DNA from: Flavobacterium luteum | GTDB lineage: Bacteria; Bacteroidota; Bacteroidia; Flavobacteriales; Flavobacteriaceae | Assembly: GCF_008806775.1 (NCBI RefSeq) | Contig: NZ_WAEM01000002.1 | Span: forward strand, 1-64,000 | Direction: 5' to 3' | DNA: 64,000 nt | Shown here: piece by piece, positions 29,986 through 38,693 of the stretch | Layout of the letters: each line of letters starts with the position of its first letter | Numbering within the stretch: position 1 is the first letter of the stretch | Made by a program: the position numbers and the translations under genes | Notes under the pieces: generated by a model | Seen by the model: only the letters and a program-made list of their open reading frames with translations | What the model was told of the DNA's origin: nothing | The model's database searches: none

Positions 29986-31110
29986 TCAATTATTTTTGTG
30001 CTTATTTCTCAAATTCATGATTGGTTTTTCAAAATAATTATACAAGAAAAAACTCAGTAGAAAAGTGACTAATAAATAACAAAAAGTAAAAATGTGCAAT
30101 TGTATCATTGAAAACGAACTGATATTAAAACAAGATTTCATTATTTGTAATACAATACTATAATGCAATAAGTAAATAGAGTATGATAATAAACTTAATA
30201 AAGTTATGGGTCTAAAAAACCATTTAGGAACGGATTGCCAATTTGAAAAAACCGGAAGAAATAAAGTGAATGTTACAGATACTAATGGTAAATATAAAAC
30301 ATTCCAAAAAAAAGGACATGTATTAATAAAAAATCGTAAATAGCCAACACCTACAAATAGAATAATTGAAAAAAAACATCCAAGAAAAAACAATTTTACC
30401 TTATGTTTTATCCAAAATTCATTATAACTTAAAGCAAACCAACTAGAAAGTATTCCTATTAAAATAGCATCTATTCGATACACGACAACCGACTTCAAAG
30501 AAACATTCCATTGCTCTATAGTCGTTTTTGACGTTGTAAAATAATATATGATTTTATTAAAAACAAAAATCACTATTAGAATCGCAATAACTATAATAAA
30601 GAATCTAGATTTGTGTTTTGGTTTAACTAAAGATGTTAAAAAATACAATGCAAAAGGCGTAAATAAATACCCAAATTCTAGAATAGACAAACTCCAAGAC
30701 TCTGGAAAAAAAGTCAGCATAGGCTGAGAAAAATTTTGGAAAAAGAAAAAATAATATCCAACATTTTCTATTTGAAAATGAAACGTTACAGCAATAACTA
30801 TGTTTAAAAGTAAAACCAAAAAATAATTAGGTAAGGTTCTAAACCAACGTCTTTTTAAAAAAGAAAAAACCGATTGAATAGTAAAATCATTCTGAATATA
30901 TAACTTGAACAAAATATTTCCAATTAAGAATCCGCTTAAAACAAAGAAAATCTCAACACCCCAAAAACCAAATAAAATCAGCATTTGAGACAACTTATTA
31001 TTTAAATTAGGATAAATTAAAAGCAAATTAGAAAACAAAACCATCAGGATTGCAATAGCCCGAAAAAAATCTAATCCGAAAATTCTTGGAACATTTTGTT
31101 CTTCATTCAT
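29986..31110 (-). CDS. Acyltransferase-3 family membrane protein lacking the motif His
   Basis: 374 residues with about ten hydrophobic helices, the acyltransferase-3 (OafA/YrhL-like) fold that O-acylates sugars of surface polysaccharides. It is a paralog of the gene immediately upstream (same length, alignable throughout: FGLDxxR, GFLIG, FPESWS, VVYRIDAILIGI, YSIYLLHYSIV). In the first helix the family RX10H motif reads R17...N28: the His is Asn (codon AAT). The active site may therefore be impaired or altered. It is only 5 bp downstream of its paralog, so they are co-transcribed. Confidence 0.85.
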   Translation of the reverse strand: MNEEQNVPRIFGLDFFRAIAILMVLFSNLLLIYPNLNNKLSQMLILFGFWGVEIFFVLSGFLIGNILFKLYIQNDFTIQSVFSFLKRRWFRTLPNYFLVLLLNIVIAVTFHFQIENVGYYFFFFQNFSQPMLTFFPESWSLSILEFGYLFTPFALYFLTSLVKPKHKSRFFIIVIAILIVIFVFNKIIYYFTTSKTTIEQWNVSLKSVVVYRIDAILIGILSSWFALSYNEFWIKHKVKLFFLGCFFSIILFVGVGYLRFFINTCPFFWNVLYLPLVSVTFTLFLPVFSNWQSVPKWFFRPITLLSLLSYSIYLLHYSIVLQIMKSCFNISSFSMIQLHIFTFCYLLVTFLLSFFLYNYFEKPIMNLRNKHKNN

Positions 31111-31115
31111 AGCAA

Positions 31116-32240
31116 TTACATTTTTATGTCTCTGAGTTTTGTTACAGGCTTTTCAAAAAAAGTATACAAAACGTAACTCAATGAAATAGTAAGAACCAAG
31201 TACAATACTGCAAACAAATGCAATTGTATGATACTAAAATTTGACGTGTCGATAAAATGCTTCAATAAATAAAGTACAATACTATAATGTAATAAATAGA
31301 TTGCATAAGATAATTCGCTTATATGCTCTACTGCTTTTTGAATACATGATGAACCCATTTTCCATTCAGAAAAAAACGGCAAAAAACAAACCAAAGCAGC
31401 CGTATTTAATGGTAAACAAATCACATTCCAAAAAAAAGGAAAATCTGCAATTTTTAGTTTTAAATAACCAAGACAGAAAAGTAAAATAAAAATTAATAAA
31501 AAGCCTAAAGTTCCAAATTTGAATTTTTGTTTTTGCCAAAATTTAGAATATTCACAAGAAATAAAACCAAATAAAACTCCTGCTAAAACGGTATCAATTC
31601 TATAAATAACTACAGAACGTAACGAAATATCCCATTGTGCCATAGTTGTGTTTTGAGTATTGAAATAGTAACTTATTTTCAGCATAAAAAAGAAAAGAAT
31701 CATCCCAGAAATGACCCACAAAAAAAGCATTTTTCTTGAAACTTTTTTAAAAATTATAGAAACTAGCAACAACAAAAAAACGGTAATTAGATAGCCATAT
31801 TCTTTTATAGGCATACTCCACGATTCAGGAAAAAAGGGTAATAAAGGCGTAGCAAAATTTTGAAAAAAGAAAAAATATTTCCACGAATCTACAATTGGGT
31901 AACCAATAAAAAAACCGATTATTATATTTACAACTATTATTAAATAATAGTTCGGCAAAATTCGAATCATACGTCTATTAAGAAAAGACATCATGGATTT
32001 AAATCCATAACCCTCATGCAAAAATTGCTTGTAAATAATACTTCCTATAAGAAATCCGCTAAGAACAAAAAAAAGCTCAACGCCAAAAAAACCACACATA
32101 TCAACTGCTTTTGCTAATAAACTAGAGCTTGGCGGATAAATCCAAGACGTATGTGAACACAATACTAGTGCAATTGAAATGACACGCAACAAATCCAATC
32201 CAAAAATTCGTTTGGTAGGTTTTCGTTCAGTTTCAATCAT
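31116..32240 (-). CDS. Acyltransferase-3 family membrane protein
   Basis: 374 residues with about ten membrane helices. The RX10H motif is intact (R19, H30 in LRVISIALVLCSH), and the downstream conserved blocks GVELFFVLSGFLIGS, FPESWSMPIKEYGY, YRIDTVLAGVLFG and YAIYLLHYSIV are present. It probably transfers an acyl group to a cell-surface glycan from the cytoplasmic side. First gene of a two-gene paralogous pair, divergent from the PHM-like gene with a 37-bp gap; candidate promoters for both directions overlap in this area. Confidence 0.88.
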   Translation of the reverse strand: MIETERKPTKRIFGLDLLRVISIALVLCSHTSWIYPPSSSLLAKAVDMCGFFGVELFFVLSGFLIGSIIYKQFLHEGYGFKSMMSFLNRRMIRILPNYYLIIVVNIIIGFFIGYPIVDSWKYFFFFQNFATPLLPFFPESWSMPIKEYGYLITVFLLLLVSIIFKKVSRKMLFLWVISGMILFFFMLKISYYFNTQNTTMAQWDISLRSVVIYRIDTVLAGVLFGFISCEYSKFWQKQKFKFGTLGFLLIFILLFCLGYLKLKIADFPFFWNVICLPLNTAALVCFLPFFSEWKMGSSCIQKAVEHISELSYAIYLLHYSIVLYLLKHFIDTSNFSIIQLHLFAVLYLVLTISLSYVLYTFFEKPVTKLRDIKM

Positions 32241-32249
32241 TTAAAATTG

Positions 32250-32257
32250 TATTTTTG
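32250..32257 (+). promoter_or_regulatory. Candidate -7 box for the PHM-like gene
   Basis: TATTTTTG matches TAnnTTTG, about 20 nt before the ATG at 32278, in the short divergent gap. Confidence 0.45.
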
Positions 32258-32277
32258 ATTTTCGATTCGATTAAATT

Positions 32278-33411
32278 ATGACAAAATCAAAGATATATAA
32301 ATTTTCAGGAGTTTTTGTGCTGCTTTGCACAATTGGTGCTGGAATATGGTATTGGCAACTACCCAACCGTCACAAAGCAATTATAAAGACGGTTTTCCTT
32401 CAGGAAACTGGAATTGTTGATAATAAATGGATAATCGATAATTCTCACTTAGAGTATAAAATGATTTCCCCAACTTTCTATATTGACGGGATTTACAAAT
32501 CTATGGAAGGGCCAAAATCTTCCAATTATATAAAGCTTTCGCAAGACTCAACATTACTTTGGCTTACTGGTTTTCATGTTAAAGCATTAGACTCTAAAAC
32601 CAAGAAACAAGTATCTAACGATTTTATTTGCCATACCAATATCGACTTTAATGATGTAAAATATTTTAGCAATTTTAATCTTAATGAAAGAATAGGAATC
32701 TATTATCCAAGATTGACTTCGCTCTCTCATGGGTTAGAAAATTTTACTTTTCCAAATGGATATGGCATTCCGATGAAAGGAAATGACTTGCTTTATATTA
32801 CTACCGAATCTTTAAACCACAATATTACTAATGCAAATTTTTGTATAAAGCATGAAGTTACTGTCGATTATTCTAAAAAAAATACAAATATTAAACCCTT
32901 ATTAAGCAGAACTGCTTTTATTATGTTACCTTATAACAAATCCGACCCGTATAAAAGTACAATAGATACAGGAAAAGACTATTGCGTTCCTGTAGAAACT
33001 AAAAATCATAGTTATGATTTTGGTGACGGAAATGTATTATCTGGGCATTGGATTATTCCTATTGGAAAAAAAACATATAGCAGCTCTATCGATGGACAAT
33101 TGCAAATTAAAGATAGTTTACAATTGCACGCTGCTGCGGTTCATGTTCATCCTTTTGCAACTGCATTAACTTTGTGGGATAAAACTACCAAAACAGCAAT
33201 TTTTAAAAGCAAAATGACAAACCATACAAACAAAATTGGACTTTCAAACATTAATTCTTTTAGTTCAGAATCTGGAGTTTGGATGTTTAAAAATCACGAA
33301 TACGAATTGGTTTTAGAAGTTAATAATACTACCAAAAGCAATCAAGATATGATGGCAAGTATGTTTTTGTTTTTTTATGATGCCGAATTGGATTCGATAG
33401 TAAATAAATAA
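32278..33411 (+). CDS. Membrane-anchored PHM-fold (copper type II monooxygenase-like / Nod19-like) protein
   Basis: 377 residues: one N-terminal membrane helix (about 8-26), then an extracytoplasmic domain. I recognise no close named family, but the motif order follows the two-domain peptidylglycine alpha-hydroxylating monooxygenase (PHM) fold, also found in plant Nod19 proteins: a CHTN segment at 118-121 in place of the first copper His-His pair; PNGYGIPM...LLYITTESLNHN (159-182) in place of the PHM PKGVGF...LQVHYG block; an HVH pair at H289/H291 like the PHM HTH copper ligands; and a Met cluster (M358, M359, M362) before LFFYD, like the PHM Met ligand. One copper site looks intact and the other incomplete. 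It diverges from the acyltransferase pair. Fold call moderate; activity unknown. Confidence 0.6.
   Translation: MTKSKIYKFSGVFVLLCTIGAGIWYWQLPNRHKAIIKTVFLQETGIVDNKWIIDNSHLEYKMISPTFYIDGIYKSMEGPKSSNYIKLSQDSTLLWLTGFHVKALDSKTKKQVSNDFICHTNIDFNDVKYFSNFNLNERIGIYYPRLTSLSHGLENFTFPNGYGIPMKGNDLLYITTESLNHNITNANFCIKHEVTVDYSKKNTNIKPLLSRTAFIMLPYNKSDPYKSTIDTGKDYCVPVETKNHSYDFGDGNVLSGHWIIPIGKKTYSSSIDGQLQIKDSLQLHAAAVHVHPFATALTLWDKTTKTAIFKSKMTNHTNKIGLSNINSFSSESGVWMFKNHEYELVLEVNNTTKSNQDMMASMFLFFYDAELDSIVNK
32288..32295 (-). promoter_or_regulatory. Candidate -7 box for the acyltransferase pair
   Basis: The minus strand reads TATCTTTG (TAnnTTTG) inside the start of the divergent gene, giving an acyltransferase leader of about 40 nt. 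Confidence 0.35.
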
Positions 33412-34478: not shown

Positions 34479-35888
34479 CTACTTTTTTAACCAATTATTA
34501 GTAAACGAACATTCTCTATACTCACCATTAATTTTGATGTACGTTTCTTTAATTTTTTGTTCAGACCATTTTGCAATGGCATTTATTTGTTTTTCTTTTA
34601 AAGCAATCTCTTTAATCTTTATATAATCTTTAGCATAATCAGCAGTATGCTCATTGATTCTGTTGGTCACTGTCACTAATTTGTATTTCTTTTTTCCATT
34701 CTGATCAGTATCTAGAATCGGTAATGAAACCTCACCTTCTTTTAAATTTGAAACTTGACTATATAAAGACGGATCCATCTTAGTCAATTCAAAATGGGTA
34801 TCTTGAGTTTTTGGATTTACTAAAAGACCTCCGTTTGCTTTCGTTTCTTTTTCATCAGATTCGGCTCTTGCAGCTTCTGCAAAAGTTACTACTTTCTCAT
34901 CAATTTTTTTCTTAATTTGAGTTATTTTTTCTTTGGCTTCTTTGAGAGATTCGGCAGAAATTGCTGGCACTAAAAGAATGTGTCTTAACTCTACTTCCTG
35001 TCCTTTAATTTTTTCAACATAAATGATATGAAAACCGAAATCAGTTTCAAAAGGCTCAGAAATTTCACCTTCTGCTAGACTAAATGCAACATCTTTAAAC
35101 TCCTTTACAAAAGGTGTTTTTTTGTTCATTTTATAATAGCCTCCATTAGAGCTTGATCCAGGATCTTGTGAATATAAAACTGCTTTTGTAGAAAAACTCG
35201 AACCTTCCTGAACTTCTTTCTTAAACTCTTTGAGCTTATCAATTACTTTTTGTTTTTCTGCTTCGGTTATCTTGGGTTTTATGACTATTTGGGCAACTTC
35301 CATCTCTGCACCAAATGTAGGCAAATCACTTGCTGGTATTTTTTTGAAAAAATTACGAACTTCTTCAGGAGTAATTTCGACTTTATCAACAATTCGCTTA
35401 GTCATTTCTGAAGACAATTTATTCATTTTTATGATTTCAAAAAGATCTGCCCTGAATTCTTCTTCATTGGCTTTTTTGAAATACTGTACTGCTTTTTCCA
35501 TAGAACCTAATTGTTCAACCATATAATTAAGTTGTTCTTCTAGTTTAGATTTAACTTCTTCATCAGTAACTATTATACTATCTTGTACTGCTTGATGTGC
35601 GTAAAGCTTGTCTTCTAATAATTTTCCTAACATTTGACATCTAGTAATATCTTTTACAGAGCCTCCTTGACTTGAAATTTCAAGAAAGGACTTATCAATA
35701 TCCGAATCTAATATCAAATAATCTCCAACAGTTGCAATTACTCCATCAATCTTTTGTCTTTGAGTAGGGATTTTTTCAGGCACTGCCTTTTTAACAGTAT
35801 CCTTAATGATTTCTTGTGCATTTATGGTTGTTGCGGAAAAAATAAAAAAGAAAATAAATAGTGTTGCTCCTTTATTTATAAATTTCAT
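34479..35888 (-). CDS. SurA-type periplasmic peptidyl-prolyl isomerase
   Basis: 469 residues from the ATG at 35888 (MKFINKGATLFIFFF, a clean signal peptide ending at TINAQ). A start 42 nt further upstream would put 14 polar residues before the signal and is rejected. A SurA-like N-terminal domain precedes two parvulin (rotamase) domains, about residues 160-270 and 280-385 (SQDPGSSSNGGYY, FETDFGFHIIYVE). It chaperones outer-membrane proteins. It overlaps the upstream lipoprotein gene by 17 bp, indicating translational coupling. Confidence 0.92.
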   Translation of the reverse strand: MKFINKGATLFIFFFIFSATTINAQEIIKDTVKKAVPEKIPTQRQKIDGVIATVGDYLILDSDIDKSFLEISSQGGSVKDITRCQMLGKLLEDKLYAHQAVQDSIIVTDEEVKSKLEEQLNYMVEQLGSMEKAVQYFKKANEEEFRADLFEIIKMNKLSSEMTKRIVDKVEITPEEVRNFFKKIPASDLPTFGAEMEVAQIVIKPKITEAEKQKVIDKLKEFKKEVQEGSSFSTKAVLYSQDPGSSSNGGYYKMNKKTPFVKEFKDVAFSLAEGEISEPFETDFGFHIIYVEKIKGQEVELRHILLVPAISAESLKEAKEKITQIKKKIDEKVVTFAEAARAESDEKETKANGGLLVNPKTQDTHFELTKMDPSLYSQVSNLKEGEVSLPILDTDQNGKKKYKLVTVTNRINEHTADYAKDYIKIKEIALKEKQINAIAKWSEQKIKETYIKINGEYRECSFTNNWLKK

Positions 35889-36723
35889 AATCCTTGTCTT
35901 TAATAGCATCATCTGTAATTTCTTTTTCAAATTTTTTAATTAATTCTAACTTTCTTTTATTTAAGATAACTTCTTTTAATGTTGGTTTCAGATATTCATA
36001 AGGTCCAATTTGATTCTTGTCTATTGTTTGTCTAATTTTTACTAAGTAAACATCAAGTGAATCTGAATGCTGAATTGTTTTTCCTGAAGCTATATATTGA
36101 TCCCTATTATCAGGATTAATGAATGGTAATTTACTGTAAATACTACTCAAATTTACCCAAATAGAATCATTTAAGGCAAAACTCTTACATTGTAGTGCAT
36201 AGGTATCCCAAAATTTCTTATCAGATTTTTTAAAATCTAAAAACTTACTTTTTATAGTTTCAAATCTGGGGTTGTCTTTCCTCAAATTAATATATCTTAA
36301 ACGAACTAAAGTCCCGTTTGTTTTAAAATTTTCTTTATTGTTTTTATAATATGCTTTTAATTCCTCTTCTGAGATTATTGTATCTAAAGTTTTTTTTACA
36401 ACCTTTTCAATATATGCTTTAGTATATAAATCTATCTTATATTGTTTTATTAATAAATCAAATGCTGCTTTTTCTTCATCATCTAAATTTACTTCCGCTG
36501 CGTTTATTAATAATTTCTGTGAAGCCCAACGGTCAATGAAACTTCTTACTATGAGTAGGCTATCTTGTTTTGAAGTTCCTTGCGGGACCAAATTATTTAA
36601 GTCCTCCTTATACAAATAACTGTCTTTTACTTTAGCTATAGCAGTAACCTTTACTTCATTATTAAAAAAATGACATGAAGAAAATGTCAGAATTATCAAA
36701 AACAGAAAACAACATTTGTTCAT
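35872..36723 (-). CDS. SurA-related lipoprotein with degenerate parvulin region
   Basis: 283 residues. The signal peptide ends in a lipobox-like SSC (MNKCCFLFLIILTFSSC), so it is a predicted lipoprotein. The N-terminal half resembles the SurA chaperone module (WASQKLLINAAEV, a charged helical region, ITEEEL-like SEEELKAYYKNN). The C-terminal half lacks the GG...F and FG(Y/F)H signatures of active parvulin domains. It lies between two canonical isomerases and shares a base with the start/stop of its upstream neighbour. It probably acts as a chaperone without isomerase activity. Confidence 0.78.
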   Translation of the reverse strand: MNKCCFLFLIILTFSSCHFFNNEVKVTAIAKVKDSYLYKEDLNNLVPQGTSKQDSLLIVRSFIDRWASQKLLINAAEVNLDDEEKAAFDLLIKQYKIDLYTKAYIEKVVKKTLDTIISEEELKAYYKNNKENFKTNGTLVRLRYINLRKDNPRFETIKSKFLDFKKSDKKFWDTYALQCKSFALNDSIWVNLSSIYSKLPFINPDNRDQYIASGKTIQHSDSLDVYLVKIRQTIDKNQIGPYEYLKPTLKEVILNKRKLELIKKFEKEITDDAIKDKDYEIYK

Positions 36724-38693
36724 TATTTTTGAAGTTGTTTTTTTACGTTCTCAAAAACATCTTTGTTTACTTTAATTGTAAACTCCTTTTTTAAATCATT
36801 AACCCAGTTTTCTTCTAAAAACTGTTGGTAGTCATTAATCGCTTTTCCTTTGCATTCTTCTAATGTCTTTGGAGCGGCAGGAATTACTTTATCAGTCTTT
36901 ACTACAAAATAATATTCGCCTTCTTTTAAAATGTCTGAAACGCCAACTTTGAATTTTAATTCTTTTGGTAAAGATTCTGAACCTTCTTCAAAAACACCAG
37001 TATTAGTCATTATCTGCACTTTATCTTTGGTGTTTAATTTTTCTTTAATTTGCTCAGAAGCAATATTTTGGTTAAACATTTTTTGAGCTTTTTTAATAAC
37101 TTCAATATCAGTAGAGGAAGCTATTGTGGCGTCTACTCTGTTTTTCCAAGTATACTCTAATTTTTTGGTTTCATAAAATGATTGCAAACCTATAGAATCG
37201 GTTTTTGATTTTTCCCAAATTTCTTTTTCCATCAAATCGAAAAGTAATAATCCATCTCTATACTCTTCAATAACATTAGCAAAATCAGGAAATTCAGACT
37301 CTAAATTGTCATTATAATAACTATTCAATTTAGTATCAAGAAACTTTTCGTACAAATTATCAACTAGTTTATTTATGGGTTTTAACTTACTTCCTCCTTG
37401 TTGTTGCTCTTTTATATAGTTCAAAAAATCAGTCCCTGTAATGGTTTTTTCTTGTATGGCAAATAACTTTCCATCATATGGTTTTGTCACAGTTGGCAAT
37501 TCCCATTTACTTTCATAAAAATCATCAGTAACTGTTTTTGCTGCTGATTTATACATCTTATTATCTCTCTTAACAGCATATTTTTTTCTTAGCTTATCAT
37601 TCAATGAATTGACAATCAGTCTTGATCGATCGTCTTTTCCTACTTTGTCCTCTAATTCTGATTTTACTTCTTCAAAAGCTTTTACAGGATGTTTCTCTAT
37701 TAATTTTACTATATGCCAGCCAAACTCACTTTGAAAAGGAGCTGAAATTGGTTTTTCTTTAGTTAAAGAAAAAGCAGCATTTTCAAATTCTTCTGAACTC
37801 AACTGTCCTGATCCAAAACGATTAAGAAGCCCTCCTTTTGGCGATGATGATTTATCGTCTGAAAACTGTTTTGCGAGTTCTTCAAAATTTTCACCTTGTT
37901 GAATTTTTTGATAAATATCCTGAATTTTCTTATTTGATTTATCCCTTTCTTCTGCGGTAGCATCCTTTGGATCTAAAATCATTATATGCTCTACTGTAAC
38001 CTCTCCTCTATTGTCTCTAACATCCTCAACTTTAATAATGTGATATCCAAAACGAGTTCTAATAGGTCTTGAAATTTTTCCTTTTGGCGTTTTATAAGCA
38101 GCTGATTCAAAGGTATACACCATTCTAAATGCAGAAAAATAGCCTAAATCACCTTTGTTTTCCTTGGCAGATGGATCTTGCGATAATTCTTCAGCTAAAT
38201 TTCCGAAATCTTCTCCTTTAACTGCTCTATCGTAAATGGCTTTGATTTTGTTAAAGGCAATAAGTGTATCTGCAGCAGAAGCATTTTCATCAACTGTAAT
38301 CAGTATATGCGCTGCTTTAATCTCCTTAAGCGAACGATTGTATCCTTCTTCAACTAGTTCTTTTGTTACTTTGGAATCTGTTAAATAATTTTTTGAAAGC
38401 TGAGTTCTGTATGAATTAAGTTCGTTTTTATATGCCTCACCATTTTGCAATCCAAGCTTATTTGCTTTATTTATTTTAAGCTTATATCCAACAAATAACT
38501 CTAAATATTGGGTTAAATCTTTTTGAGATTCGTCTTTAACTAAATCTAAATTTTTATTGTAAACCCTCGAAAATTCGTCAGTATAGTAAGGTTTATCATC
38601 AATTGTAAATAAAATTTCTCTTTTAATATTTTGAGCATATGTTATGAATTGAAAAGAAAGTAATAATCCGACAAATAATTGTTTTATTTTCAT
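36723..38693 (-). CDS. Large two-parvulin-domain periplasmic isomerase
   Basis: 656 residues with a signal peptide (MKIKQLFVGLLLSFQFITYAQ). Two parvulin domains occupy about residues 120-225 (AAHILITVDE, GDLGYFSAFRMVYTFE, RTRFGYHIIKVED) and 230-340 (EHIMILDP, GGLLNRFGSGQLSSEEFE, QSEFGWHIVKL). A long C-terminal extension of about 300 residues has no recognised motif. It assists folding of exported and outer-membrane proteins. First gene of the chaperone operon; its stop abuts the next start. A full TTG-N19-TAnnTTTG promoter lies about 80 bp upstream. Confidence 0.92.
   Translation of the reverse strand: MKIKQLFVGLLLSFQFITYAQNIKREILFTIDDKPYYTDEFSRVYNKNLDLVKDESQKDLTQYLELFVGYKLKINKANKLGLQNGEAYKNELNSYRTQLSKNYLTDSKVTKELVEEGYNRSLKEIKAAHILITVDENASAADTLIAFNKIKAIYDRAVKGEDFGNLAEELSQDPSAKENKGDLGYFSAFRMVYTFESAAYKTPKGKISRPIRTRFGYHIIKVEDVRDNRGEVTVEHIMILDPKDATAEERDKSNKKIQDIYQKIQQGENFEELAKQFSDDKSSSPKGGLLNRFGSGQLSSEEFENAAFSLTKEKPISAPFQSEFGWHIVKLIEKHPVKAFEEVKSELEDKVGKDDRSRLIVNSLNDKLRKKYAVKRDNKMYKSAAKTVTDDFYESKWELPTVTKPYDGKLFAIQEKTITGTDFLNYIKEQQQGGSKLKPINKLVDNLYEKFLDTKLNSYYNDNLESEFPDFANVIEEYRDGLLLFDLMEKEIWEKSKTDSIGLQSFYETKKLEYTWKNRVDATIASSTDIEVIKKAQKMFNQNIASEQIKEKLNTKDKVQIMTNTGVFEEGSESLPKELKFKVGVSDILKEGEYYFVVKTDKVIPAAPKTLEECKGKAINDYQQFLEENWVNDLKKEFTIKVNKDVFENVKKQLQK

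Follow-up and report, generated by a model that had tools for sequence, protein, structure and literature searches.

A membrane-anchored protein of PHM fold in Flavobacterium luteum that probably holds a single copper

Peptidylglycine alpha-hydroxylating monooxygenase (PHM) and dopamine beta-hydroxylase (DBH), copper type II ascorbate-dependent monooxygenases with which animals complete peptide hormones and produce noradrenaline, are among the closest described counterparts of the protein analysed here. According to passages of PMC6123673, the CuH site of PHM is formed by His107, His108 and His172, and passages of PMC4846438 describe the CuM site of DBH, homologous to that of PHM, as two histidines and one methionine. 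Both enzymes have been described in a closed state. In the H108A variant of PHM with citrate (6ala), the C-domain turns by about 18 degrees, a single copper is bound by His107, His242 and His244, and Met314 leaves the copper (PMC6123673). Chain A of DBH is also closed, with the copper sites 4-5 A apart (PMC4846438). The transfer of electrons between distant coppers in PHM and DBH and the role of the closed form are discussed as open in passages of both papers (PMC6123673, PMC4846438). A natural family that is predicted to be closed and has kept CuM alone would offer a test case, and would show a catalytic copper fold recast for another redox task.

The gene studied here is located at 32278-33411 of the window, the 64,000-nucleotide stretch of contig NZ_WAEM01000002.1 that was analysed, on the forward strand, as are all features of the protein given below. 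It starts with ATG and encodes 377 amino acids, and the genome carries a single copy of it. The ORF and every motif named in the original prediction proved to be real and in place, with CHTN at residues 118-121, PNGYGIPM at 159-166, ESLNHN at 177-182 and HVH at 289-291; the segment QDMMASMFLFFYD corresponds to residues 356-368. The membrane anchor it had proposed was recovered as a helix of residues 4-26 (32287-32355) in the secondary structure of the model, with a borderline hydropathy maximum, taken over 19 residues, of 1.61 at residue 6. Public genome records yielded relatives at 36 loci, 43-92% identical in their best segment. Purifying selection was indicated by a dN/dS of 0.091 against L010, while dS was saturated against L001. 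The motif residues did not vary across the 36-row alignment (A1) or across 19 further loci, of which three duplicate rows already included. These related loci, the purifying selection and the invariance of the motif residues demonstrated that the ORF is not a chance one.

The gene was sparsely distributed. In the family-level sample 28 of 397 genomes matched, including the window genome, and eight of the 28 yielded no locus and are absent from the alignments. The matches in the phylum sample (4/395) were the window genome, two genomes of the same genus and the remote relative L060, and the broader profile A3, run across the phylum, returned the same four among 390 genomes and nothing further. 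Profile A2, which included L060, matched 19 of 395 genomes in the class sample. Apart from the window genome, one congener and a false match, these comprised 16 genomes outside the family, which provided 20 distant proteins. The false match, L079, was rejected as its sequence resembles what we take to be an efflux-type membrane fusion protein. The 77 rows used for residue counts thus consisted of 38 (the 36 of A1 with L058 and L059), the 20 distant proteins and the 19 further loci with their three duplicates. The incomplete L012 and L035 were retained, and L023 was excluded because it was frameshifted, with 18 stops in one frame. L023 is the copy of Flavobacterium sp. JAD_PAG50586_2, in which neighbouring ORFs are also split, and may reflect an assembly error rather than a pseudogene. 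Relatives were not found in the viral contigs searched, and PADLOC found nothing.

The family is without a name in the Pfam and NCBIfam copies searched, and the members scanned gave no meaningful match. The hmmscan of the window protein against Pfam-A matched no family up to E 10, PF01082 and PF03712 included. With E up to 1, A1 (36 members) and A3 (26 members) gave neither of these two but scattered unrelated families only, with a best E of 0.041. Plant SURNod19 was covered through the Pfam-A scan only, likewise with no family up to E 10, and the HMMER filters applied in it discard most weak matches. The NCBIfam search gave no match up to E 10 for the window protein and, across the 26 sequences in A3, single matches only, at E 0.025 or worse. 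Searching the PDB by sequence with the single protein, A1 and A3 gave no PHM match (the rows listed looked like chance), and no recognised description of this Cys-His PHM-fold family was found in the literature search. The present assignment would name a family that these libraries leave blank.

The PHM fold claimed in the original prediction was examined by structure prediction and superposition. The AlphaFold2 model of the window protein, built from A1, had a pLDDT of 86.0 and a pTM of 0.84, and a second model, of the 42% identical L033 with the same 36 sequences, had a pLDDT of 89.6. In the Foldseek search with the window model, the top 29 matches were all PHM or DBH chains (best E 3.1e-9). 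VIA-align superposed this model on PHM 6ala_C with a Z of 17.9 (rmsd 3.5 A, 243 residues aligned) and on DBH 4zel_A with a Z of 15.9 (rmsd 3.6 A, 246 residues), and the first fold other than PHM and DBH was PNGase at 9.2; the corresponding values for the L033 model were 17.5, 16.3 and 8.9. The paired beta-sandwich domains that characterize PHM and DBH were present in the predicted models, and both models matched over the two domains. A two-domain PHM fold is near certain on these predictions. A comparison of profiles with A4, the Bacteroidia set positive for PF03712, was weak (P 0.032 for A3 and 0.15 for A1), and this weak comparison sets H289 and H291 on H319 and H321 of L104 and, with A3, M359 on M402.

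When compared with PHM (rat 1phm and 6ala), the window family shares both beta-sandwich domains, the HxH and Met of CuM and the order of the motifs. It differs in the Cys-His pair at the proposed position of the CuH His-His, a third CuH His that is not kept family-wide, an interdomain segment bearing C236 and H257, the membrane helix, and invariant cysteines numbering only two. The catalytic core of DBH (4zel) likewise resembles both models in the closed arrangement of its chain A, whereas DBH has a three-His CuH site and carries DOMON and dimerisation domains that are missing from the window protein.

The second of the two copper sites was kept throughout. The CuM histidines of H289-V-H291 (33142-33150) are in register with those of PF03712 proteins, and the CuM methionine position, M359 (33352-33354), with Met402 of L104. 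H289 and M359 were present in all 77 aligned rows, and H291 in 76 with one unreadable letter in the remaining row. Among the distant homologs the counts were 20/20 for H289, 20/20 for M359 and 19/20 for H291, again with one unreadable. The HxH and Met ligand set of PHM and DBH is thus kept in the alignments, and the site, previously predicted to be complete, is fixed in the 36-row alignment, the distant homologs and the 19 further loci. Copper is likely held at H289, H291 and M359; copper binding, already suggested by the original prediction, would be the natural reading and is backed by the SCO gene adjoining in other genera, described below.

The first site was different. The original prediction had placed one His there instead of two, but the alignments showed a Cys-His pair, C118-H119 (32629-32634), in 76 of the 77 rows, with C118 and H119 each in 19 of the 20 distant homologs; the three-His CuH site of PHM and DBH was not found. 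Conservation and the MAFFT register with L060, a relative with His-His, suggest that this pair stands at the position of PHM His107-His108. The proposed position of the third ligand (PHM His172), H181 (32818-32820), is invariant within the Flavobacteriaceae group, as are C118 and H119. In the distant homologs it was kept in 12 of 20, the others having Leu (5), Gln (1), Asp (1) and an unreadable letter (1). As the pair is Cys-His in nearly every row and H181 is replaced in seven of the 20 distant relatives, the classical tri-His CuH site has been lost, and the first site looks rebuilt rather than simply one ligand short. The interdomain segment at about residues 219-262 (32932-33063), mostly missing in L060, bears C236 (32983-32985), by the alignments the sole other invariant Cys and a possible disulfide partner or ligand, as well as H257-W258 (33046-33051), which is missing in L060 and present in 20 of 20 distant homologs (H257 likewise 20/20).

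The register of Cys for His was partly shown, through one remote relative in a global alignment. L060 reads D-V-L-H-H-F-N where the family reads D-F-I-C-H-T-N, ungapped in the MAFFT alignment, and C118 and H181 are 63 residues apart, compared with 65 for His107 and His172 of PHM (numbers from passages of PMC6123673). The significant genome-search match of L060 to A1 covered profile positions 282-353 only (E 1.6e-5, calculated for a single genome among the 395 in the search). A profile without L060 detected its C-domain at E 5.7e-13 (one sequence) and its N-domain marginally, and the Cys-His stretch fell outside every local profile match to L060. Because only the C-domain of L060 matches significantly and the Cys-His stretch is aligned globally only, this register is weak; C118 likely, though not provenly, occupies the position of His107. 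The Met of L060 was in register in the MAFFT alignment and misplaced in the broad one, and L060 was accordingly omitted from the residue counts. This protein (L060:1357-2382), PHM-like and free of Cys, sits on a very long tree branch and is a possible outgroup to the Cys-His family.

If the protein were a dicopper monooxygenase whose first site has been altered, it would hold its second copper at C118, H119 and H181 (or H257) and feed electrons from there to CuM, as PHM does. Dicopper enzymes have this fold, and the invariance of C118, H119 and H181 in the Flavobacteriaceae group agrees with such a site. However, H181 is exchanged for Leu, Gln or Asp in seven of the 20 distant homologs, L088 has Gly-Arg in place of Cys-His while keeping CuM, and any single His-to-Ala mutation at CuH inactivates PHM according to passages of PMC6123673. 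We regard this modified dicopper enzyme as quite improbable, and the classical dicopper mechanism is unlikely.

The arrangement of the domains bears on how a single copper could be bound. 6ala was the best VIA-align fit of both models, ahead by about 2 Z of 5wja_D, which gave 15.8 (rmsd 4.3) with the window model and 15.6 (rmsd 4.2) with the L033 model; both models were built from the same alignment members and are not independent, and the fit may include a bias toward the closed form. The remaining PHM entries gave Z of 13.0-15.2 (rmsd 5-6 A) with the window model and 13.0-14.8 with the L033 model. The lead of DBH over 5wja_D, and over 1yip with the window model, was below 1 Z and amounts to a tie, though with lower rmsd. 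The Foldseek TM-scores, unlike its E-values, favoured 6ala and 4zel_A.

We propose, with a probability of roughly 0.4, that the protein is a closed single-copper redox protein with an interdomain Cys-His2(-Met) centre, in which C118 serves as a ligand, and not a dicopper hydroxylase. The protein would be anchored in the membrane on the periplasmic side, its two-domain PHM fold rebuilt to take one copper. A CuM-type copper would stay on H289 and H291, close to M359, whereas the electron-transfer site of the dicopper enzymes would have lost its tri-histidine character, its first His having become C118. With the domains closed, C118 could reach the CuM copper and complete the centre. The protein might then act in electron transfer, as a copper/thiol redox protein or as a one-copper oxidase, rather than as an ascorbate-dependent dicopper hydroxylase. 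Among the observations against such a centre, Met314 leaves the copper in closed 6ala (PMC6123673), so that the Met may not ligate when the domains are closed, and the E-values of Foldseek placed open PHM entries first, with 6ala_C sixth for the window model and ninth for the L033 model.

The cysteines suggested another role for C118, in which a C118-C236 disulfide seals the old first site and H289, H291 and M359 hold one copper on their own. The protein would then be an oxidase with one copper, an enzyme that uses peroxide or a carrier of copper. Apart from L088 and L091, every aligned member has both C118 and C236. L088, which lacks C118, has a Cys six residues further and still exactly two Cys, a parity that favours the disulfide; L091 has a Cys a few residues off the aligned column, and the His-His protein L060 lacks Cys altogether. 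On the other hand, the loop of C236 had a pLDDT below 50 at residues 226-237 of the window model, unusual for a firm disulfide (the L033 model was better, with block means of 67-73). Moreover, H119 and H257 are conserved, which a sealed site would not require, and some homologs, L081, L085 and L087 among them, seem to carry three soluble Cys; these conserved histidines and odd Cys counts favour a metal role. We regard a lone CuM with such a disulfide as the main rival, only slightly less probable than the shared centre.

Returning to the closed Cys-His2(-Met) centre, the residues of a type 1 (blue) copper site, Cys-His2-Met, are conserved in the alignments as C118, H289, H291 and M359. A stronger form of the proposal, in which a blue-type centre arose between the domains of a PHM fold fixed in the closed state and produced a one-copper electron-transfer or thiol-redox protein scattered over Bacteroidia, is doubtful.

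PHM proteins positive for PF03712 were common in the class Bacteroidia, being found in 103 of 198 genomes (E up to 0.01). Twelve such proteins (L104-L115) share the register of HxH and Met with the window protein, but differ from its family in keeping the His pair (one second letter unreadable) and the third His and in bearing a CxxCH haem motif at the N-terminus, ahead of the PHM core. In the two of them scanned with Pfam, which pass the Pfam cut-offs for PF01082/PF03712, a type IX secretion tail is also present. The haem may be a built-in electron donor.

Outside Flavobacterium (the genus being judged from records or handles), an SCO1/SenC gene (PF02630, E 2.2e-18 for L028) was located directly downstream on the same strand. 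This was the case at six of the seven loci L028-L034, with the two ORFs adjoining or sharing up to 14 bases, and at 15 of the 19 further loci. Without the three duplicates, the linkage was found at 19 of 23 non-Flavobacterium loci, or 19 of 24 with the truncated L035. None of the 30 rows in the Flavobacterium-side clade of the tree had an SCO neighbour, and in L021 the gene is followed by a 217-aa ORF that did not match the SCO profile. The linked SCO proteins carry CPSIC (CPTIC in one) and a YHS motif, and nearly all have lipoprotein-like starts as judged by eye. The window genome encodes two SCO proteins elsewhere, about equally distant from those that are linked (33-39% identity for the best matches). 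A membrane protein of MauE-like type (E 1.3e-7) was encoded divergently or nearby at seven of seven loci L028-L034 and at five of the 19 further loci (two of them duplicates).

In the proposed single-copper centre, the copper would be loaded by an SCO-type lipoprotein, encoded adjacently in other genera and elsewhere in the window genome. The direct linkage and the membrane anchoring would also suit a copper delivery or storage protein that partners SCO in oxidase assembly and has no catalysis of its own. We give this only a slight chance, as the Flavobacterium-side members keep the gene without an adjoining SCO, and a part in general oxidase assembly is argued against by the presence of the gene in so few genomes of the family sample.

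On the other side of the gene, 37 bp away (32241-32277), a divergent acyltransferase gene lies at 31116-32240 on the reverse strand, followed in tandem by a second at 29986-31110, also reverse (both Acyl_transf_3, Pfam E 2.2e-27 and 2.1e-21). The original prediction had drawn a surface-glycan or lipid context from this link. The divergent gap is real and the neighbourhood frequent, with acyltransferase genes in the flank at 31 of 35 loci with upstream sequence and at 19 of 19 further loci; they were missing at L013, L022, L024 and L027, and the link is dispensable. As it fails at these four of 35 loci, it offers weak context for a surface-glycan or lipid role. The SCO and MauE-like neighbours point to copper/thiol redox more than to surface glycans.

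At the 20 distant loci, local profiles detected no SCO, acyltransferase, MauE-like, aconitase or MoxR neighbour, and no neighbour family was common to more than three. The promoter scan was near the shuffle level (11 found against a mean of 8.3, sd 2.7), and no terminator was found. Where the sequence reaches, the gene in Flavobacteriaceae lies mostly between genes that we take to be those of aconitase and a MoxR-type protein. In the closely related L003 and L005, the ORF directly downstream, for a PMT_2-type glycosyltransferase, shares 4 bases with the end of the gene (Pfam, L003 only), and in L009 and L016 an ORF for a MarR-type regulator follows directly downstream on the same strand (Pfam, L009 only). 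Beside the MoxR-type gene, the window contains three consecutive ORFs at 34479-38693, the two larger of which cluster together by blastp and are presumably peptidyl-prolyl isomerase chaperones.
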